Part shown: one piece after another, positions 30,126 to 43,326 of the stretch
Numbering within the stretch: the stretch's first letter is position 1
How the letters are laid out: each line of letters opens with the position of its first letter
IMG/VR virus record: IMGVR_UViG_3300010354_000175
Span: 1-43,326 of that record
Strand: one strand, 5' to 3'
Source of the DNA: a virus
DNA: 43,326 nucleotides
The notes under the pieces: model-generated
The model's database searches: none
What the model was told of the DNA's origin: nothing
Seen by the model: only the letters and a program-made list of their open reading frames with translations
Translations under genes and position numbers: made by a program

Positions 30126-31058
30126 ATGGAAAATACTAGGCTATTAGAATTACTTCAATCTGTTTTGGGCAAAGCAAAATCTACCAATAAAGGTAATGCA
30201 GCTTTTCATTGCCCGTTTTGTAATACACAAAAAAAGAAGTTAGAAGTACAGTTATTTACAAACGATAAATTAGAAAATCCTTGGCACTGTTGGGTATGTA
30301 ATAAAGCAGGTAAAAAGATAACTACTTTATTAAAAGCACTAAATGCAGATAAACAAAAGTTTACTGAATTATATCGTATACTTCAAATATCTCCTACAAA
30401 AGTCAATATTCAAGACACTTCAGAACAAGTTAAATTACCTGCAGAATTTCATCCTTTATATATTAAACGTCCTTCTGTAGAATATAAGAATGCTCTATTC
30501 TATCTACTTAAAAAACGAGGCTTGACAGCTCATGATATAATTAAATACAATATAGGATATTGCGAGGATGGAGAATATGCTAAAAAAATTATTATACCTT
30601 CATATGATGCTAATGGTAAATTAAATTATTTTGTATCAAGAACGTATTATGATGCAGAATCTTTTAGATACAAAAATCCTGAAGTAAGTAAGAATATAGT
30701 TGGCTTTGAAAATTTAATTAGTTGGGATTTGCCTTTAGTTTTAGTTGAAGGCGCATTCGATGCTATAGCAATTAAAAGAAATGCAATTCCGTTATTCGGT
30801 AAAACGATTAGCGAAGATTTAAAAAAGAAAATTATACAATATAACGTAAAAGAGTTATATATTTGTTTAGATAAAGATGCTCAAAAACAGGCTCTAGAGC
30901 ACGCAGAATATTTTATTAACAATGGTATTGTAGTATACTTTGTTAATTTAAATGAAAAAGATCCTTCGGATATAGGATTTATTAAAATGAAAAGTATTAT
31001 ACAAGATACAGAGCCATTTTCATTTGCAGATTTAATATCTTTAAAGTTAGCATTATGA
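30126..31058 (+). CDS. 61: DNA primase, gp61-type (zinc ribbon plus Toprim)
   Basis: 310 residues (T4 gp61 has 342). The N-terminal zinc-binding domain has Cys29, Cys32, Cys55 and Cys58 in 'HCPFC' and 'HCWVC'. The Toprim catalytic site has Glu208 in 'VLVEGAFDAI' and Asp249/Asp251 in 'YICLDKDAQ'. It synthesises RNA primers for lagging-strand replication, presumably with a helicase that is not in the window. Its stop overlaps the next start (ATGA), so translation is coupled to the Mre11-Rad50 fusion. Confidence 0.88.
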   Translation: MENTRLLELLQSVLGKAKSTNKGNAAFHCPFCNTQKKKLEVQLFTNDKLENPWHCWVCNKAGKKITTLLKALNADKQKFTELYRILQISPTKVNIQDTSEQVKLPAEFHPLYIKRPSVEYKNALFYLLKKRGLTAHDIIKYNIGYCEDGEYAKKIIIPSYDANGKLNYFVSRTYYDAESFRYKNPEVSKNIVGFENLISWDLPLVLVEGAFDAIAIKRNAIPLFGKTISEDLKKKIIQYNVKELYICLDKDAQKQALEHAEYFINNGIVVYFVNLNEKDPSDIGFIKMKSIIQDTEPFSFADLISLKLAL

Positions 31059-34000
31059 CAAAAATAGACATAGGATTAAACAATATTGATAAAATTTATC
31101 ATATTGCAGACGTACATATTAGAAATTTAAAACGACATTCTGAATATAAAGAAGTATTTACTCGTTTAAAAGAATATATTTCATCGACAAAAACTCCTAA
31201 TAGCGTAATTTATCTTGCAGGAGATATAGTACATGCTAAAACGGATATGACTCCGGAATTAATTCAAGCCGTTCAGGAATTTTTTAAAATGATGGCAGAC
31301 GAATTACCTACCATTTTAATTACTGGAAATCATGATTGTAACTTAAATAATAAAAATAGATTAGATGCTTTAAGTCCAATTGTAAATGCCCTCAAACATC
31401 CTAACTTATTTTATTTAAAAGACTCCGGCGTTTATGAGATTGCCGATAAACATTTTGCCGTAATGTCAGTATTCGATAAAGCAGTAGATTATATCAAAGC
31501 AGATTCATTTACGGCTCCTTATAAAATCGCATTACACCATGGATCTGTAGATAATGCTTTTACTGACGTAGGTTTTAGATTAGAAAATAAACATGTAAAT
31601 AACGATACGTTTTCAGGATATGATTTAGTATTGTTAGGAGATATACATAAAGTACAATATTTAGATTCTAAAAAGACAATAGCATATGCCGGCAGTTTAA
31701 TTCAACAAAACCATGCAGAAGGATTAGAACACGGAATATTAGTTTGGAACTTAAAAGATAAGTCATCACAGTTTATTCAGATACAAAATGACCATTGTTT
31801 TTATACATTAGATATAGACAATGGTAAACATACTTCGTATGATAATTTACCTAAAAATGTACATTTACGTATAAGAGTTAAAGATACTGAATCTGATGTA
31901 GTTAATTTAATACTTGCAGACTTCAAGACAAAATATAATGTTGTTGAAGTAGTAATACAAAAAACTAACGATCTTGCTCATAAACGCTCGACCTCAAAGA
32001 AAATAGATATAGGTGATATCCGCGATCCTGAAAACCAAAATAAACTAATCTATGACTATTTAAAACAAAAGTTTAACCTCGATGATACATTTTTAGATGG
32101 GGTTAGACATATAAATCGAAAGACTAATAGTAGTTTAGTTGCGGCAGATATTACACGTAATATTATTTGGTTGCCAAAGAAATTTGAATTTTCAAATATG
32201 TTTTCTTATGGAGAAAATAACGTAATTGATTTTACAAATTGTAAAGGTACGTATGGTATATTTGCTCCTAATGCAAGCGGTAAATCTACACTGTTAGAAG
32301 CTCTTTCATATTGTATATTTGATAAATGTGCTAGAGCATATAAAGCAGTTCATGTTTTAAATAATAAAAAAGATTCATTCCATTGTAAATTTAATTTTGA
32401 AATTGACGGTGTAGATTATTTTATTGAAAAGTCGGCAACGCGTACTAAATCCGGACATGTAAAAGTAGATATAGATTTTTGGTATATAAATGAAGACGGA
32501 GATTCTATTTTCTTAAATGGTCAAGAACGTAGTGATACAAATAATATTATTCGTAAGTATGTAGGTACATACGAAGATTTTATTTTAACGTCATTATCAT
32601 TACAAAATAACAATACTGCATTTATCGATATGAGCCAAAAAGATCGAAAAGATTTACTGGCGCAGTTTTTAGATATTAATGTATTTGAAAGTTTATATAA
32701 CATTGCAAATGCGGAAAGTAAAGATATATCTGTATTAATAAAAGAATATAAGAAAACTGATTATACAAGTGTTATAGCAAAACATGAAACGGAGATTCAA
32801 TTATTAACTTCTACATTAACAGGATTAGAACAAGACAAACTTAAAGTAGATAATTTAATTAATGACTTAAATGATAAAATCGTAGAACAGTCAACCTTAC
32901 TTAAACCGGTAGATAAAAATGTTGTCGATATACAAGAATCGTTAAATAAACAAAAACAGTATGAAGATAAAAGTTTAGAATGTAATACTAATTTAAATTT
33001 AATTTTAGGACAGCGAGATGATTTACAAGAAGAAATAAATCAATTAACGGGCAGTTTAGAGTCATTTAATAAAACTGAAATAGATAATCAGTTAAATGAA
33101 ATGAATAAATTATCGTCAGAAAAATCTTCATACGAAAGTCAGTTTGCTAGAATATCTACTACATATAAACATACAAAAGAAAAAGCAGATAAATTAGAAA
33201 CATTAGAATATGATCCTAATTGTAAATTTTGTATGAATAATGTATTTGTTAAAGATGCATTGGAAGCTAAGAATAAATTAAATGAAATTGAAATTCAAGT
33301 AATTGAATTACAAAATAAAATTCAAGATTACGATACTAAAATAAAATCGTATCAAATTTGGGAAGAGCAATCAAAATCATATACAGCTGTTATAGATATT
33401 ATAACAAGAAAAAATATTGCTCTTAATTCTACCAATACAAAAATTCAATCAATGAAGTCCAATTGTGATACTATTGATAAATCATTAGATCAAATTAAAA
33501 AAGATATTGAACTTTATAAACAAAATGAAGAATCTATCGCTGCAAATAAAATTGTACAAGACGTAATAGATGATTTACAATCTAAAAAGAAACAAGCTAC
33601 GGATGTTAGTAATATTCTAAATAAACAAATTATACAAACAAACGGTAGTATTCAGATCCACGAAGCAAATAAGCAAGTTGCAATAGATGCTATACAAAAG
33701 TTAGCTGATTTAGAACTTCAATACAAATATTATCAATATTATCTAGAAGCAGTAAATAGGGACGGAGTTCCATATCATTTAATAAGTTTAGCTATTCCAC
33801 AGATTGAACAAGAGATAAATAATATTCTTATTCCTATTGTAGATTTTGTAATTAAATTAGACACTGATGGAAAAAATATTAATGCATATATCGTATACGA
33901 TAACGATAGTTTTTGGCCAATAGAATTAACTTCGGGCATGGAAAGATTTTTAAGTTCATTAGCAATACGGTCTGCATTAATTAATGTATCTAGTTTACCT

Positions 34001-34204
34001 CGGCCTAACTTTTTAGCGATCGATGAGGGATTTGGAGTATTAGATTCAGATAAATTGATTAGTATTTATTCATTATTTAATTATCTTAAGACCCAATTTA
34101 CTTCGTTATTTATTATTTCTCATATAGATTCTATGAGAGATGTAGTAGATAGTTTAATTGAAATTAATAAAATTAATTCATACTCCAAGATAGACTTCCG
34201 TTGA
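31055..34204 (+). CDS. Mre11-Rad50 (gp47-gp46, SbcD-SbcC) fusion nuclease
   Basis: 1049 residues in one frame. The N-terminal Mre11/gp47 phosphoesterase shows 'IADVHIRN' (about 17-24), 'LAGDIVH', 'ITGNHDCN', 'ALHHGS' and 'LLGDIHK', all the metal-binding motifs. The Rad50/gp46 part starts near residue 370. It has Walker A 'PNASGKST' ending at about 412, long coiled coils with the zinc-hook 'CKFC' at 723-726, signature 'LTSGMERFLSSL' near 958 and Walker B 'FLAIDEGFGVLD' near 986. In T4 the two are separate proteins of 339 and 560 residues that resect DNA ends for recombination-dependent replication. Here they are covalently joined, fixing the 1:1 ratio. Confidence 0.93.
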   Translation: MTKIDIGLNNIDKIYHIADVHIRNLKRHSEYKEVFTRLKEYISSTKTPNSVIYLAGDIVHAKTDMTPELIQAVQEFFKMMADELPTILITGNHDCNLNNKNRLDALSPIVNALKHPNLFYLKDSGVYEIADKHFAVMSVFDKAVDYIKADSFTAPYKIALHHGSVDNAFTDVGFRLENKHVNNDTFSGYDLVLLGDIHKVQYLDSKKTIAYAGSLIQQNHAEGLEHGILVWNLKDKSSQFIQIQNDHCFYTLDIDNGKHTSYDNLPKNVHLRIRVKDTESDVVNLILADFKTKYNVVEVVIQKTNDLAHKRSTSKKIDIGDIRDPENQNKLIYDYLKQKFNLDDTFLDGVRHINRKTNSSLVAADITRNIIWLPKKFEFSNMFSYGENNVIDFTNCKGTYGIFAPNASGKSTLLEALSYCIFDKCARAYKAVHVLNNKKDSFHCKFNFEIDGVDYFIEKSATRTKSGHVKVDIDFWYINEDGDSIFLNGQERSDTNNIIRKYVGTYEDFILTSLSLQNNNTAFIDMSQKDRKDLLAQFLDINVFESLYNIANAESKDISVLIKEYKKTDYTSVIAKHETEIQLLTSTLTGLEQDKLKVDNLINDLNDKIVEQSTLLKPVDKNVVDIQESLNKQKQYEDKSLECNTNLNLILGQRDDLQEEINQLTGSLESFNKTEIDNQLNEMNKLSSEKSSYESQFARISTTYKHTKEKADKLETLEYDPNCKFCMNNVFVKDALEAKNKLNEIEIQVIELQNKIQDYDTKIKSYQIWEEQSKSYTAVIDIITRKNIALNSTNTKIQSMKSNCDTIDKSLDQIKKDIELYKQNEESIAANKIVQDVIDDLQSKKKQATDVSNILNKQIIQTNGSIQIHEANKQVAIDAIQKLADLELQYKYYQYYLEAVNRDGVPYHLISLAIPQIEQEINNILIPIVDFVIKLDTDGKNINAYIVYDNDSFWPIELTSGMERFLSSLAIRSALINVSSLPRPNFLAIDEGFGVLDSDKLISIYSLFNYLKTQFTSLFIISHIDSMRDVVDSLIEINKINSYSKIDFR

Positions 34205-37145: not shown

Positions 37146-38951
37146 ATGAATATAATCGCAGTTTATCCAGGAAGATTTCAGCCATTTGGCAGACATCATG
37201 CAGAAGCATTTAAATGGTTGCAAAATCAATTTGGTACTAAAAATACTTTTATAGTTACTTCTAATGTAGTAAATACACCAAAATCTCCTTTAGATTTTAA
37301 AGATAAAAAAGATATTATATCTCAATATGGATTAGGTAAACATGTAATATTAGTTAAAAATCCGTATAAGGCAGAAGAATTATTATCAAAATACGATCCT
37401 AAAACAACTGCAGTAGTTTTTATGGTAGGTCAAAAAGATATGGAAGAAGATCCGAGATTTTCAATTGGTAAATTAAAATCAGGCGGAGCTACATATTTTC
37501 AAGATTATTCTAAAAATAAAAATAAATTGCAAGGATATGATAAGCATGGATATTTAATTGTTGCTCCGCATATATCTTTGAAAGTACCTTTATACGGAGA
37601 AATGAGCGGAACTACATTACGCAAGGCAATTGCTAGTGCAAATACCGATGCAAAGCGTAAAGAATTATTTACGGCTGTATTTGGTTGGTACGATAAATCT
37701 CTTGCAGAAAAAATGTTTAAAAAATTTAATTCTGCAATGAAAGAAGGATATATGAATCCTAAACAAGCAATTGCTCATACTAATAAATTAAATAAGTTAA
37801 AAGATTTTTTAGATAAAAATCATGGACGTGAATTTGTTTATGATTTTGATATGTTTCCAAAAACAGTATATGGTGTTAAGATAGAAGAAAAATTATTTTG
37901 GGATAACTTTTTTAACTTAGTACTTGAAGGAGGAGCAGGTGGCCACATGGCACATCCATTTGATATACCATCGGTTTCTTCCGGAAATGATTTATTAAAT
38001 GTATTTAAGCAATCTGTAGATTATTTAAGTAAAAAACCCGCATCGGTAAAGATAGATGGGGTAAATGCTTCAATACGATTAGTTAAATTAAATAATAAAT
38101 TACAGTTCGTTATGGATAGAGGGTCTAATAAACCTTTAGACGTAAAGGGAATTACAAAATCAGAATTAGAAGATAGATTCGGTGCGGGTCATGGAATGAT
38201 TAAAGTGGGTGGTACTGTATTAGATATTTTTAATGATGCTTTGCCTACTATTAAAACTGAACTGAAATCTTTAGGATTATTAGATAATCCGAATATAATG
38301 TTTAATATTGAATATGTAGCTGGTTCTACAAATGTATTATCTTACGGTAAAAACTTTTTAGCAATTCATGGATTATTGGAAATACAACAAGTGACCGATA
38401 AAAAGAGGGCTTCAAAAGAAATACCGTATAATAAAAAGACAATGCAAACTTTGTTAAATAAATTAAATCCGATAGCACAGAATTTTGGTTATGAAGTAGT
38501 TGGATCTATACCTACTACATTGGAAGCACAGCCGGATTTTAATTCAGTTTTAAATGAAAAGTATACGGTAAATTACGGACCGAAAAAAGAAACTAAAACG
38601 TTAAACCAATGGTTAGCATCTGCAAAAATTCCTAAAGGTAATATTAAAACTGTAGATGGGAAAACTATTGCCGCATTATCAAAAGAAGTATTATTAAAAA
38701 TATCAGAAGGTACTCCTTTAAATAAATTCGTTGCAGATCCAAAAGATTATCAAGCTGCAATAGATGGATTTGTAATTTATATTGCAACAATGAAATTGGG
38801 AGATGCAGTATTAGAAAAATTAAATTCTCCATTAGGTCCTGTAGCAGAGCATGAGGGAATAGTAATTCGCGATCCGAAAATTTATAATAAACCGTTTAAA
38901 ATTACCGGAAAATTTATTGTTGGCGGATTAGCAACATCATTTAGAAAATAA
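37146..38951 (+). CDS. HxGH-type nucleotidyltransferase fused to ligase-like domain, 601 aa
   Basis: Residues 1-170 resemble NMN/pantetheine-type adenylyltransferases: 'PGRFQPFGRHHAEAF' (8-22) is the HxGH region and 'EMSGTTLRKAI' (about 152-162) the ISGTxxR motif. The first His of HxGH is replaced by Gly, leaving GRHH. After about 265 ('GGAGGHMAHPFDIP') a second domain begins that has ordered covalent-nucleotidyltransferase (ligase) motifs: KIDG at 302-305 with Lys302 as the adenylated residue, 'NIEYVAG' near 390 as motif III, 'HEGIVIRD' near 570 as motif IV and 'FKITGKF' as a possible motif V. NAD+ synthesis joined to an RNA or DNA ligase is one reading. Confidence 0.75.
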   Translation: MNIIAVYPGRFQPFGRHHAEAFKWLQNQFGTKNTFIVTSNVVNTPKSPLDFKDKKDIISQYGLGKHVILVKNPYKAEELLSKYDPKTTAVVFMVGQKDMEEDPRFSIGKLKSGGATYFQDYSKNKNKLQGYDKHGYLIVAPHISLKVPLYGEMSGTTLRKAIASANTDAKRKELFTAVFGWYDKSLAEKMFKKFNSAMKEGYMNPKQAIAHTNKLNKLKDFLDKNHGREFVYDFDMFPKTVYGVKIEEKLFWDNFFNLVLEGGAGGHMAHPFDIPSVSSGNDLLNVFKQSVDYLSKKPASVKIDGVNASIRLVKLNNKLQFVMDRGSNKPLDVKGITKSELEDRFGAGHGMIKVGGTVLDIFNDALPTIKTELKSLGLLDNPNIMFNIEYVAGSTNVLSYGKNFLAIHGLLEIQQVTDKKRASKEIPYNKKTMQTLLNKLNPIAQNFGYEVVGSIPTTLEAQPDFNSVLNEKYTVNYGPKKETKTLNQWLASAKIPKGNIKTVDGKTIAALSKEVLLKISEGTPLNKFVADPKDYQAAIDGFVIYIATMKLGDAVLEKLNSPLGPVAEHEGIVIRDPKIYNKPFKITGKFIVGGLATSFRK

Positions 38952-38968
38952 TTATTAATAAAAATACT

Positions 38969-39544
38969 ATGACAAAGTTACGTAATATAGATGCGGTTAA
39001 AAAAATGTTAGACGGTAATCACCGTACACAAACAAAAACTTCCGTGTCATTAAATGTTAAAGAAGCGCCTATTAAACGAGAAATAGGTGAACGTTGGACC
39101 GATGAAAATGGAAAAGAATGGGAACAGCGAGACGGTTATAAAATAAGCGTTACAAAAACATTAGATTTACTCGCACAGCATCGAATGCCTGAACATTGTC
39201 CAAATTGCAATAATGTAATGGCAAAAAAGCATTTAGATGAAAGAATGTGGAGAATACATAAAATGTGTTTTGATTGCGTAATTGATATGGAACATCAATT
39301 ACGTCTTGAAGGTAAATATGATGATTATGAAAAACAAAAAATAAAAGAAAATGCTTTAGCTTGGTTGAGAGATGCTGAAAAGGATGTAGAAGATTTAGTT
39401 AATGCTTATAAGTATGCTTCTTTTGTTAATCAAGACGGTTCTGTAGAAAAGTGGTCGGGAGGCCTGTCTCCGGAAGAATTTGAAAATAAAGTACGTGGCG
39501 AGTTTGATAAATTTAAAACAGATTTCGTTGCTAAATTAGGATGA
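38969..39544 (+). CDS. Putative zinc-binding phage protein, 191 aa
   Basis: A Cys-rich knuckle pair, 'HCPNCNN' (about residues 76-82) and 'MCFDCVID' (about 99-106), should bind one zinc ion. The N-terminal region is basic ('KMLDGNHRTQTKTSVSL'). A conserved 'GERWTDENGKEWEQRDGYK' motif lies between, and the C-terminal half is helical and acidic. The same protein type sits beside similar genes in other large phages I remember, but its role is not established. It is 17 bases after the ligase fusion and 5 bases before the HAD gene, so a functional link with these is possible. Confidence 0.7.
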   Translation: MTKLRNIDAVKKMLDGNHRTQTKTSVSLNVKEAPIKREIGERWTDENGKEWEQRDGYKISVTKTLDLLAQHRMPEHCPNCNNVMAKKHLDERMWRIHKMCFDCVIDMEHQLRLEGKYDDYEKQKIKENALAWLRDAEKDVEDLVNAYKYASFVNQDGSVEKWSGGLSPEEFENKVRGEFDKFKTDFVAKLG

Positions 39545-39549
39545 TATAA

Positions 39550-40533
39550 TTGAAACGTCAGTTAAAAATATTTGATTTCGATGATACATTGGCTAAATCC
39601 GAAACTCCGGTAATAATAAAAAAATCGGACGGTACGTCAATTAAATTAACGCCGGGTGAATTTGCTACATATAAAATGGATCCAAATGATAAAATGGATT
39701 TTACATTTTTTAACAAAATGATTAAAAAAGCCGAACCTATTCAGCATAACGTAAATTTACTTAAAAAATATTTATCTAATCCAGGAAAATATAAAGTAAC
39801 AATTTTAACTGCACGAGCATTAGCATTTCCTATACGTTATTGGTTAAAAAAGTTAACGGGGCAAGAAGTATATGTTGTTGGAGTAGCCGGATCAGATCCT
39901 AAATTAAAAGCAAATTATATAGAAAAAGAAATACAAAGAGGATATACGGATATATTCTTTATGGACGATAGTTTACCTAACGTAACTGCAATTAAAAATT
40001 TAGAAAAGAAATATCCGCATGTTACTATTGATGCAATAGTAGCCGAAGAGTATTTTTTAAATAAAATAAACACCATTACTGAAGATTTAAGAGATTGGTT
40101 TGGTAAAGGAAAAAAAGGTGGTGTAGGTGGCGGCGGTTGGGATAGATATAATTCAAAAGGAGAGCGAGTTGGTAAATGCGGTGATGCTAAAGAAGGAGAT
40201 GCATATTCTGCATGTTTATCTAAAGAAAAAGCTCGTAAGTTAGGTAAAAAAGGCCGAGCTGCTTTTGTTAATAGAAAGCGCGGGGCGCAGAAAAAAGCGG
40301 GAGACGCTAAAAAAGGCGGCGAGCGTACAAAAGGTCAAAAACCCGTTAAAGTAAAAACAGGAGCATCAGAATCTGTTATAACAGAAAAAAATGTACCTAC
40401 TAATCCTTCTAAATGGGCATATTATAAATCTCAAGCAAAAAAGAAATTTGACGTATATCCGTCTGCATACGCAAATGCTTGGGCTGCAAAAATGTATAAA
40501 AAAGCAGGTGGCGGTTGGAGAACGGAAAAATGA
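39550..40533 (+). CDS. HAD phosphatase with Lys/Gly-rich C-terminal extension, 327 aa
   Basis: The start is TTG; no ATG is available before the active site. Residues 1-175 form a HAD hydrolase: motif I 'IFDFDDTLAKS' (Asp9 nucleophile and Asp11), motif II threonine in 'VTILTARAL', and the acidic motif IV in 'IFFMDDSLPNV'. After 'INTITEDLRDWFGKG' the chain becomes Lys/Gly-rich, with 'GGGGWDRYNSKGERVGKCGD', resembling the DUF5872 family, and ends 'MYKKAGGGWRTEK'. In T4 Pnkp a HAD-type phosphatase heals RNA 3' ends. A polynucleotide substrate is inferred from the neighbouring ligase-like gene. The 3' end overlaps the next gene (ATGA). Confidence 0.78.
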   Translation: MKRQLKIFDFDDTLAKSETPVIIKKSDGTSIKLTPGEFATYKMDPNDKMDFTFFNKMIKKAEPIQHNVNLLKKYLSNPGKYKVTILTARALAFPIRYWLKKLTGQEVYVVGVAGSDPKLKANYIEKEIQRGYTDIFFMDDSLPNVTAIKNLEKKYPHVTIDAIVAEEYFLNKINTITEDLRDWFGKGKKGGVGGGGWDRYNSKGERVGKCGDAKEGDAYSACLSKEKARKLGKKGRAAFVNRKRGAQKKAGDAKKGGERTKGQKPVKVKTGASESVITEKNVPTNPSKWAYYKSQAKKKFDVYPSAYANAWAAKMYKKAGGGWRTEK

Positions 40534-41321
40534 AAAAATTAGAAACTTTACGTATGCAAAAATTAGCGGGGCTAATTACGGAAAGTACGTACAGAAAAAT
40601 TATGTCTGAAATTGAAAGCAGCAATTTTATAGAAGAAGAAGAAGATGCTGAGAAAATTTTAAAAGACACTCCGGACGATATCGAAGCTACATTAGCTAAA
40701 TTTTTAAAAATGTCTCCGGATGAATTAGAGCAACAAGTACTTAATTCTGATCCTAAGGAAGAAGTCAATGAAGCATTAGCATTAACCGTTTTATTGGCAT
40801 TGCCGATGCTTTTAGAACTAGCAGGTGCCGGTTTAAATAAAATGAAAGCGTTATCATTAACGGGAGAAGATAAAAAATTTTATGAAGAATGGAAACAGCG
40901 ACGTAAAGCTGCTAAAGATTCTAAAAATACTGCTCAATTAGATGCATTAAAAAAAGAATATCAACAACGGTTTGCTTCTAAATTCGGAGAAGGATTAATT
41001 GGCGCCGGTCATGCATTACATAAAGCATATACATGGCCTATAGTACAAGCATTACGTTTAGGAAGTTTACTACCGGGTAAATTCGGTGATTGGGCAAAAG
41101 ATCCTAAATCAAGGCAAAAAATTGCAGATATAATGTATGCAGCTGGAATGTTATTTTACGGTGGTATTCATGCCAAAGCGGGTATTGAAGGTTTATTATC
41201 ATCTCATGGTGTAGATGCTACGAACTTTACCACCTCTGTTATAGATACGATGAAATCTGGGAAAAGTTTAAAAGATGTAGTAGCAGCTGCATTGGAAATT
41301 GGCGGAGCTGCGTCGAAATAA
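40530..41321 (+). CDS. Putative internal virion protein with capsid-targeting-like N terminus, 263 aa
   Basis: The ATG at 40530 overlaps the stop of the HAD gene; the in-frame TTG at 40515 is rejected. The opening 'MKKLETLRMQKLAGLITES' ends in Ile-Thr-Glu-Ser, which fits the T4 prohead-protease consensus (L/I)-x-E with A/G/S after it. A hydrophobic segment ('ALALTVLLALPMLLELAGAGL', about residues 82-102, one residue beyond 20 when joined) may be a membrane or oligomer helix. The rest is helical with Lys-rich linkers and 'GAGHALHKAYTWPIVQALRL'. Could be packaged and ejected with the DNA. No family is assigned. Confidence 0.68.
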   Translation: MKKLETLRMQKLAGLITESTYRKIMSEIESSNFIEEEEDAEKILKDTPDDIEATLAKFLKMSPDELEQQVLNSDPKEEVNEALALTVLLALPMLLELAGAGLNKMKALSLTGEDKKFYEEWKQRRKAAKDSKNTAQLDALKKEYQQRFASKFGEGLIGAGHALHKAYTWPIVQALRLGSLLPGKFGDWAKDPKSRQKIADIMYAAGMLFYGGIHAKAGIEGLLSSHGVDATNFTTSVIDTMKSGKSLKDVVAAALEIGGAASK

Positions 41322-41329
41322 GGAAATAA

Positions 41330-42076
41330 ATGAAAAAAAATATTATTACAGAAGCTATTCAATATCATAAGGAAAATAATATTCCTTATAGCGAACCGAT
41401 TTTTAGATACGGTTCAGTTAATTTCTTTAAATATATAAATGAATTACGTAAATTAAATGAATCTAAACAAATTGAATTAGATGAAGATGCTAGATTTTTT
41501 ATTAGTACTGATTTAGGTAAAACTGCTATGTATCATGGACAAGAGGTACTTTTAGATTTTCCAATGTTAGAAGATAAGATTAGCGAAATTACGAGATTAG
41601 AAAACGTTAAACTCTGGAAATGGCTTAAAAAGGTAAAAGAAAAAGTTACTCCTAAAATGTATAAATCAGTTGCTCAAGTAGTTCAGATGTCTATTATAGA
41701 TCCATACGAAACTGCAGATTCAATTATTAAACATATTGTAGATCAATTCGGTTTAGCAGAATTTGGTATAGCAGAATCTTTAACAGAAGCAGAATATAGA
41801 GGCAAGTCAGTAGATTTAAATTCTCCAAAGCGCGGAGGTTCTAAAAAGTTTTATGTATATGTTAAATCTGATGCAGGTAACGTAAAGAAAATAGCATTTG
41901 GTGATACTACGGGATTGACATCTAAAATTAAAGATCCAAAAGCTCGTAAAGCTTTTTCTGCACGTCATCAATGCGATAAGAAAAAAGATAAAACTAAAGC
42001 AGGTTATTGGGCATGTAATTTACCTAGATATTGGGATAAATTAGGTGGCGGTTCAAAAATAAATGGATATTGGTAA
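41330..42076 (+). CDS. Putative internal virion protein with basic C-terminal domain, 248 aa
   Basis: Starts 'MKKNIITEAIQYHK', where Ile-Thr-Glu-Ala at 6-9 is a clear match to a prohead-protease site. AAGGA precedes the start. Residues about 20-150 are helical and acidic. A second Leu-Thr-Glu-Ala occurs near 150 ('ESLTEAEYRGKS'), just before a basic C-terminal domain of about 90 residues with 'SPKRGGSKKFYVYVKS', 'FSARHQCDKKKDKTKAGYW' and the ending 'KINGYW'. I know this end domain from other large phage proteins, without a known function. Two cleavage sites would release it inside the capsid. Confidence 0.7.
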   Translation: MKKNIITEAIQYHKENNIPYSEPIFRYGSVNFFKYINELRKLNESKQIELDEDARFFISTDLGKTAMYHGQEVLLDFPMLEDKISEITRLENVKLWKWLKKVKEKVTPKMYKSVAQVVQMSIIDPYETADSIIKHIVDQFGLAEFGIAESLTEAEYRGKSVDLNSPKRGGSKKFYVYVKSDAGNVKKIAFGDTTGLTSKIKDPKARKAFSARHQCDKKKDKTKAGYWACNLPRYWDKLGGGSKINGYW

Positions 42077-42695: not shown

Positions 42696-43326
42696 ATGGC
42701 AAATAAAAGTATAAAAGAAGAAAGTTATTATAAAAACTTTCAAAAATATCTTAATGAAGATGCTACGGATGATAAATTAAATGATTTATCTAAAGAATTT
42801 GATAGCGGTAATGTAACGGGATATGTAACAAAATTACAACAATATTTATCAGATCCGAAAGTAGCAGCAGTTATAAAAGCAGGTCAAACGGATCAAAAAG
42901 GAGCCGGTGATGAAGCATTAAAATCATCCGGGGGATCGATAGCAGCTACTTCTTTAAAACCAACCCAAAATGAAATAGGCGCAGCTGAAAGTTTATTAAA
43001 TATATGTACCGATAAATTTGGAACAGTAGACAAATTTCTTAAAGGAAATGTAGCTGCGGGTGATATCGGAGGTCCTATAGTTACATATAACGGTGAATGG
43101 GTATTAGACGGTCATCATAGGTGGTCACAAGCGTATGCTGCAAATCCTAGTTGTAAAGTACCTGTATTGGATATTAAAGGAAATTTAACACCGCAGCAAA
43201 TTTTAATGGCGGTACATACAGCCACGGCAGCTGCAGCAGGTAAAACAGATACGAAATCGGCAAATTTAAAAGCAGGAAATCTTTTAACGTTTGGTAAAGA
43301 TCAGACAATTAAATATGTTAAAGAAA
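42696..43326 (+). CDS. ParB/sulfiredoxin-like protein, 3' end outside window
   Basis: The ATG at 42696 opens a frame that stays open to the window end, giving 210 residues so far. The N terminus 'MANKSIKEESYYKNFQKYLN' continues with Glu-Asp, a partial fit to the prohead-protease motif. Residues about 125-160 carry 'GPIVTYNGEWVLDGHHRWSQ', the ParB-like/sulfiredoxin-like fold signature, with D138-G-H-H-R-W. Members use the equivalent residues for nucleotide or phosphate chemistry or DNA binding. A host-DNA-directed nuclease packaged with the genome is one possibility, but the domain alone does not prove it. Confidence 0.7.
   Translation, partial: MANKSIKEESYYKNFQKYLNEDATDDKLNDLSKEFDSGNVTGYVTKLQQYLSDPKVAAVIKAGQTDQKGAGDEALKSSGGSIAATSLKPTQNEIGAAESLLNICTDKFGTVDKFLKGNVAAGDIGGPIVTYNGEWVLDGHHRWSQAYAANPSCKVPVLDIKGNLTPQQILMAVHTATAAAAGKTDTKSANLKAGNLLTFGKDQTIKYVKE

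Follow-up and report, generated by a model that had tools for sequence, protein, structure and literature searches.

The open reading frame (ORF) considered here lies at positions 37146-38951 (+ strand, ATG start) of a window that comprises the whole 43,326-nucleotide stretch of viral DNA analysed (IMG/VR record IMGVR_UViG_3300010354_000175), and it encodes a protein of 601 amino acids. One large structural-type ORF and a series of small genes flank it. The gene immediately downstream (38969-39544) specifies a 191-residue protein with two CxxC pairs whose homologues are found at 82 of the 87 loci with enough flanking DNA, far more steadily than the other neighbours. The gene two downstream (39550-40533) is HAD phosphatase-like, matches the PNK family phrog_415 (E 2e-9), and has counterparts at no more than 2 of 87 loci, those of the closest relatives. 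In the window, 39550-40533 and 40515-41321 are separate genes; in three of the closest relatives (L001, L002 and L003; L numbers designate loci) they make up a single 424-residue ORF with ITE/S at the joint (in such motifs the slash follows the residue after which a cut would fall). At 42696-43325 lies a ParB/sulfiredoxin-like domain with the motif LDGHHRW, homologues of which are found near the gene of interest at 24 of 87 loci, a like domain being fused upstream of the nucleotidyltransferase in L056. Farther away, 31055-34204 holds SbcD- and SbcC-like halves (T4 gp47/gp46) within one 1049-residue ORF.

A preliminary description of this DNA, made from its letters, took the 601-residue protein to be a fusion of an adenylyltransferase-type and a ligase-type enzyme, the least explained in the window. 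Structural modelling bears out the fusion: the protein very probably consists of two domains with two folds, one nucleotidyltransferase and the other ligase-like, joined by a linker (Table 1). The remark about its obscurity was also fair, since no sequence match in Pfam, PHROG, NCBIfam or PDB names the C-terminal domain.

Table 1. Domains, motifs and predicted processing sites of the 601-residue protein (positions are those of the window)
Feature	Position	Strand	Basis
HxGH-superfamily nucleotidyltransferase-like domain, residues 1-199	37146..37742	+	AF2, VIA, Foldseek, phrog_395, PF01467
GRFQPFGRHH, residues 9-18, altered HxGH (G-x-H-H)	37170..37199	+	Motif scoring in relatives
SGTTLR, residues 154-159, counterpart of ISSTxxR	37605..37622	+	Motif scoring in relatives
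Glu200 in AMKE/GYM, weak candidate (Met at P3) for a first cut	37743..37745	+	Low pLDDT; EGYM/EGAM in relatives
Linker, residues 201-261, small conserved helical segment	37746..37928	+	Low pLDDT; relatives compared
Glu261 in LVLE/GG at the domain junction, predicted to be cut by a prohead protease	37926..37928	+	Linkers of relatives
Divergent ligase-fold (covalent nucleotidyltransferase) domain, residues 262-601, not in Pfam	37929..38948	+	AF2, VIA, Foldseek
HMAH, residues 267-270, upstream of motif I	37944..37955	+	H267, M268, H270 invariant
Motif I, K302-I-D-G, predicted lysyl-NMP site	38049..38060	+	Invariant
D324-R-G-S (324-327), where ligases have motif Ia	38115..38126	+	Invariant; Ia assignment inferred from order
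Motif III, N387-I-E-Y-V (387-391)	38304..38318	+	N387, E389, Y390, V391 invariant
Motif IIIa, F404-L-A-I-H (404-408)	38355..38369	+	F404, H408 invariant
Motif IV, E570-G-I-V-I-R (570-575)	38853..38870	+	E570, G571, V573, R575 invariant
Motif V-like, K585-I-T-G-K-F (585-590)	38898..38915	+	K585, T587, G588, F590 invariant

The AF2 model of the full-length protein, built with 44 relatives, has a mean pLDDT of 86.9, and a Rossmann-like HxGH fold is recognized in its N-terminal domain by both VIA and Foldseek. The best VIA match of residues 1-198 is the M. jannaschii NMNAT 1f9a (Z 11.5, 2.9 Å over 146 residues) in a list made up of NMNAT, NadD and CoaD enzymes (NMN/NaMN and phosphopantetheine adenylyltransferases); Foldseek retrieves NadM (E 1e-4). 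At the sequence level phrog_395 ('cytidyltransferase') matches this part (E 2e-6), and PF01467 (CTP_transf_like) falls just short of its 21-bit cut-off (19.8 bits, E 1e-3), which it exceeds in the relatives L043 (26.4), L056 (35.3) and L050 (22.3 bits). The GRFQPF-GRHH and SGTTLRK motifs are where they had been read. The departure of the former from classical H/T-x-G-H, which is absent from the protein, is real and family-wide: among 112 relatives scored, 106 have GxHH, three SxHH, two AxHH and one, the distant L056, the classical HRGH. With this distribution GxHH is a stable family trait and not decay. The second motif is as constant (SGTxxR in 117 and CGTxxR in three of 121 N domains). Because GxHH lacks the first His of HxGH, the substrate of the domain may be a different one.

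A fold search with the full-length model fills with NMNAT matches and barely probes the C-terminal half, so residues 262-601 were modelled and searched alone. The predicted structure is a confident one (pLDDT 91.8, pTM 0.87) and does contain a ligase fold, as had been surmised. T4 Rnl1 is the best VIA match (Z 8.4, 4.1 Å over 176 residues), nearly all among the 50 VIA matches listed are ligases, and RNA and DNA ligases head the Foldseek output (E 4e-3), although these structural scores are modest. The fold had been assigned to residues 265-601; its start is better placed at G262, and residues 200-261 form a separate linker segment. A profile search of the domain against the PDB gave nothing significant. 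Matches to HPr (E 0.4) were dismissed as chance and those to NAF, Csx19 and the like disregarded as sub-threshold; PF09414 is matched weakly by 4 of 48 C-domain members (best E 0.016).

Motifs I, III, IIIa and IV stand in ligase order, so that the reading of KIDG, EYV and EGIVIR as successive ligase elements is upheld. Lys302, the predicted nucleotide-accepting residue, is among those invariant in 44-48 aligned relatives down to 49% identity, together with D304, G305, E389, E570, G571, K585, T587 and G588, which shows that the motifs are not accidental. The proposed K-x-x-G-K at motif V stands in part: K585 and G588 are invariant, but the second Lys, K589, is not conserved (S in 38, K in 37 and R in 20 of 106 relatives). 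The conserved pattern is K-x-T-G-x-F, in which an invariant Thr (T587) takes the place of the second Lys of the K-x-K of ligases. A large insertion separates motifs IIIa and IV, the chain stops about 11 residues past motif V, and the protein has no OB-fold or other C-terminal ligase-specific domain. The H-[ML]-x-H element upstream of motif I is also present in a related family with the signature EKxDG (hhalign probability 97.5); GntR matches to that family (E 0.02) were dismissed as chance.

A domain so built might form a lysyl-nucleotide and pass it to a protein, a small molecule or a cap-like group rather than to a nucleic-acid end, and the minimal size, the K-x-T replacement, the invariant H-M-x-H and the insertion all speak for this. 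We nonetheless consider it rather unlikely: the closest structural neighbours are ligases of RNA and DNA and not other members of the superfamily, and truncated ligases can retain their action on pre-adenylated ends. That both domains have turned into non-catalytic head-structure or scaffold proteins is very improbable. The altered HxGH, the changed motif V and the location among head genes in relatives would suit that explanation, but residues of catalytic type stay invariant across the range of identity just given, and dN/dS is 0.08-0.40 in both domains (mostly <0.25), far below 1. Both domains are under purifying selection.

Relatives are abundant in uncultivated viral DNA. IMG/VR yields 350 confirmed matches to the C domain and 588 to the N domain, the best 80 of each being the relatives analysed here. 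A tblastn search of 50,697 phage genomes finds relatives in only two records, Microcystis phage Mel-JY01 and an uncultured 484-kb phage. The ligase-like domain looks phage-specific, since 84,980 cellular genomes contribute a single contig-end fragment. The closest relative (L001/L212) is 87% identical.

The linker is disordered at the junction in the AF2 model, pLDDT dropping below 50 at residues 200-204, 238-251 and 254-265. The helical segment of the linker is missing from many relatives, others have extra domains in its place (compare L001, L034 and L037 with L006 and L011), and linker length ranges from 16 to 370 residues among the examples listed; content varies and the ending is constant. 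At 59 distinct junctions P3 is Leu, Ile or Val without exception, P2 is free, P1 is Glu in 55 and Cys in four, and GG follows. Cys replaces Glu (LLxC/GG) in L071, L086/L088, L100, L140 and L170. The string [LIV]-x-E/GG ends 55 of 63 distinct linkers, as against 1.8% expected from composition. The more general pattern [LIV]xE[GASDN] occurs 2.19 times per 100 residues in the 63 linkers and about 10-20 times more rarely within the domains (0.10 in N and 0.23 in C domains). Even with the junction itself removed, the linkers hold 79 such sites, a number reached in none of 500 shuffles (mean 28).

The T4 prohead protease gp21 cleaves after L/I-X-E (PMC9026906), and its sites in T4 Alt are ITE and LTE (PMC5694885). 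Judged by this signature, the domain junction looks like a prohead-protease site. The junction of the 601-residue protein has Val at P3 (V-L-E/GG), not Leu or Ile; the propeptide boundaries of the major capsid protein in related phages read LISE/A, LVTE/A, LITE/S and LVVE/T, which, if these are the cut sites, as their location suggests, makes Val at P3 normal in these phages.

The same signature is found ahead of the domains. In many relatives the nucleotidyltransferase is preceded by a brief leader that ends in [IL]-x-E, for example MNLGNWLAKQILTE (followed by D), MKTLGHEIIEQMLSE (followed by S), MNLGEWLVEQIITE, MSLGNWLAEAILSE and MNLGKSIASAILNE; the 601-residue protein itself has none. In L117, where nucleotidyltransferase and ligase are split into adjacent genes, the ligase gene begins MNLIKILLSE/GG, and in L050, L051 and L196, where the order is reversed and the protein opens with an EKxDG ligase-like domain, the start codon immediately precedes GG. 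Neighbouring genes carry like leaders (MIKLKDLLKE/A, MKKNIITE/A); over all loci, leader-like starts are found in 139 of 660 downstream and 17 of 145 upstream ORFs, and in 48 of 660 at an internal control position. In T4 the capsid-targeting peptide comprises residues 1-10 of IPIII (PMC9026906), and the short leaders of the relatives resemble such peptides. Several proteins also share short basic tags (CWxGYKQVGMKKKGxxxVPNCVP, ARHQCDKKKDKTKAGYWACNLPRYW and KKKFDVYPSAYANAWAAKMYKKAGGGW), located in the window at 41330-42076 and 39550-40533 and in the linkers of L004, L040 and L075; these may serve in head targeting or DNA binding.

A protease that could act on such sites is encoded in the relatives. 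The window stops short of terminase and protease, and gp21 is known from the relatives' records alone, 9 of 10 of which encode a gp21-type protease (PF03420), as against 0 of 14 control genomes. By the coordinates of those records the protease gene shares its strand with the nucleotidyltransferase-ligase gene, at a distance of about 9-21 kb. In L001/L212 the order, with genes assigned from sequence and the protease by its PF03420 match, is nucleotidyltransferase-ligase, small genes, terminase, portal, protease, scaffold and major capsid protein. The portal gene of L212 (7329-10292; 987 residues) seemingly has an intein (CISPDTL...VIIHNSG).

The fusion is the commonest of several arrangements. 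The N-C order is found in 81 complete ORFs, and exceptions are of many kinds in addition to the split and reversed genes already described. The ligase-like domain stands alone in L046, L070, L074 and L076, and no HxGH pattern is found in the ORFs neighbouring it in L046, L070 and L076. An unrelated HxGH domain (TGAH) precedes the KIDG domain in L040; L056 combines a ParB-like domain with an HRGH nucleotidyltransferase and EKxDG; and in L179, L188, L193 and others a GxHH-type nucleotidyltransferase is fused to DUF6267. Some relatives, L179 for one, have between the nucleotidyltransferase and the ligase-like domain what looks by eye like a Pol-beta-like segment. A Flavobacterium phage with a 58%-identical terminase has a polyprotein in the same genome slot. 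That polyprotein, gene 183 of immuto_2-6A (L220 7132-9855), is annotated NadR and reads as a Pol-beta transferase, an HxGH transferase and two zincin peptidase modules.

This modularity bears on the suggestion, made in the preliminary description, that an adenylate or NAD+ produced by the first domain is passed to the second. Were the protein truly bifunctional, its NMNAT-like domain would supply the ligase of the same chain with NAD+ or another dinucleotide, for example by recycling the NMN that an NAD+-using ligase releases. The recurrence of the pairing in so many complete ORFs speaks for this, as do its extension to three KxDG families, its retention in L040 with a different HxGH domain, and the correlation of N- and C-domain distances (rho 0.59). 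But the junction is a likely cut site, the ligase exists alone or as a separate gene, an NAD+-type DNA ligase is found in 0 of 7 related records (the control matched in 11 genomes), and NAMPT, the NAD+ salvage partner, in only one of the seven. The hand-over is thus unsupported and the bifunctional enzyme improbable.

We favour instead a polyprotein: the gene product is probably cargo of a T4-like phage. The enrichment of sites in the linkers, the disordered junction, gp21 in relatives, the leaders, and the HxGH proteins of virions described below argue for this reading, and with fair assurance the cargo can be called cleavable and head-packaged, packaging and cleavage both being inferred. Weighing against it are the Val at P3 and the lack of a leader in the 601-residue protein, the Cys at P1 in several relatives, the end of the window short of the protease, and the possible contamination of cyanophage particles mentioned below. 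Its components would be an NMNAT-fold GxHH nucleotidyltransferase and a ligase-fold domain of minimal size, in which K302 would be expected to become a lysyl-nucleotide, with a protease-cleavable linker between them. Synthesized late, together with head genes, the polyprotein would enter the prohead core, where the gp21-type protease would cut after Glu261 and perhaps after Glu200 too. Both freed enzymes would then be carried in the head and ejected into the host along with the DNA.

Phage proteins that combine several enzymes and are packaged have precedents, as have NMNAT-like proteins of virions. The former are exemplified by the polyvalent proteins of Iyer et al. 2017 (PMC5512222), for which packaging and injection were inferred and processing by zincin peptidases was proposed. 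They too are single phage proteins composed of a number of unrelated enzyme domains, and their genes adjoin late virion genes; the protein analysed here has two unrelated enzyme domains and, in its closest relative L212, a head-gene neighbourhood. ParB-like, Pol-beta and zincin modules are likewise found in the neighbourhood or among the relatives of the nucleotidyltransferase-ligase family. One difference lies in the processing: zincins are proposed there, whereas the linkers described here bear prohead-protease signatures. In the text of that survey, as far as it was searched, ligases receive no more than a passing mention and the 'HIGH superfamily' none.

The T4 internal proteins and Alt, processed by gp21 and injected, offer the other precedent, Alt being an enzyme cleaved at both ends. 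Leaders ending in L/I-x-E, a gp21-type protease and the vicinity of head genes are common to them and to the relatives of the 601-residue protein. The cargo is unrelated, and the T4 proteins lose terminal propeptides, whereas here the sites part whole enzyme domains.

Proteomics places HxGH or 'NMNAT' proteins in the particles of cyanophages S-SCSM1, S-SZBM1 and S-CREM2 (PMC9602691, PMC9146016, PMC10665884, which also cite S-CBWM1), although the authors allow that virion enzymes may be co-purified contaminants. These proteins (S-SCSM1 ORF91, S-SZBM1_140 and S-CREM2 ORF154) share with the protein analysed here an HxGH domain and an origin in T4-like phages; the two tested, those of S-SCSM1 and S-SZBM1, match phrog_395 strongly and have leaders ending FLKE/A (KE/AAES) and FIIE/A (IIE/AVAA), respectively. 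They differ in being separate genes and in having TxGH or HxGH rather than GxHH. The ligase-like gene adjoining S-SZBM1_140 encodes DUF6267 (PF19782, with KWDG), not the KIDG domain; in the text and tables of that phage's paper, as far as these were searched, its product is not named, and a literature search by the name 'DUF6267' found no paper. DUF6267 and the KIDG family have a common order of motifs (K-W-D-G...E-G-[YF]-V) and an H-L-x-H-like start, but homology between them is not supported by profile comparison (E 0.013, probability 3.4). Related records yielded no DUF6267 match, but neither did the controls, so that this absence carries no weight. From T4 RNA ligase 1 and the polynucleotide ligases, which share the nucleotidyltransferase-domain fold and the ordered motifs I, III, IIIa and IV, the KIDG domain differs in that they lack its large insertion and possess a K-x-K motif V and a C-terminal domain. 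Three things are new here: a ligase-fold family missing from Pfam, a GxHH variant that is stable, and enzyme domains punctuated by protease signatures.

The task of the two enzymes in the host is a more tentative matter. Their likeliest task would be early repair of nucleic-acid ends, before phage gene expression, with RNA or tRNA cleaved by host anticodon nucleases as the most plausible substrate. The status of T4 Rnl1 as nearest fold counts for RNA repair, as do the PNK-like HAD gene, which supports it weakly because of its confinement to the closest relatives, and the Pol-beta-like insert of some relatives; Pol-beta transferases, phosphatases and ligases have been linked to phage tRNA repair (PMC7824862). 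Some related phages have ordinary RNA or DNA ligases elsewhere in their genomes. A role in the repair of RNA or DNA ends is accordingly put forward as a possibility, and a doubtful one.

Much the same must be said of a counter-defence in which the injected HxGH domain restores or modifies NAD+ and the ligase-like domain is a packaged effector of its own, acting on some unrelated target; a route of delivery would be all that they have in common. NMNAT is the closest fold of the N domain, NAD+ roles have been proposed for the virion NMNAT-like proteins of cyanophages (PMC9602691, PMC10665884), some phages carry out NAD+ salvage (PMC9503650), and the shuffling of domains within the family fits effectors that act apart. 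Yet the loss of the first His may signal another substrate, and the scarcity of NAMPT in related records leaves the domain without its usual salvage partner in most of them; we hold this scheme, too, to be possible without being probable.

Whatever the substrates, a general scheme for T4-like phages from freshwater and marine habitats is, by a small margin of judgement, more likely than not: freely shuffled modules set between prohead-protease sites would be cut apart in the head and injected as a mixed enzyme kit. The modules would include HxGH transferases, three KxDG ligase-like families, Pol-beta-like and ParB-like domains, a phosphatase and a peptidase, loaded either as polyproteins or by means of short targeting leaders, and the KIDG domain would stand among them as a ligase family both new and minimal. 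A disordered linker ending in [LIV]-x-E/GG in a phage with gp21, or alternatively a short leader with an ending of the same type, would then be a signature by which packaged and injected enzymes could be spotted from the genome alone. An unnamed ligase-fold family is brought to notice, and the virion 'NMNAT' of cyanophages is tied to ligase-like partners, which makes a joint role testable. Puzzling phage fusions would also become explicable, because the parts that are joined may never act together.
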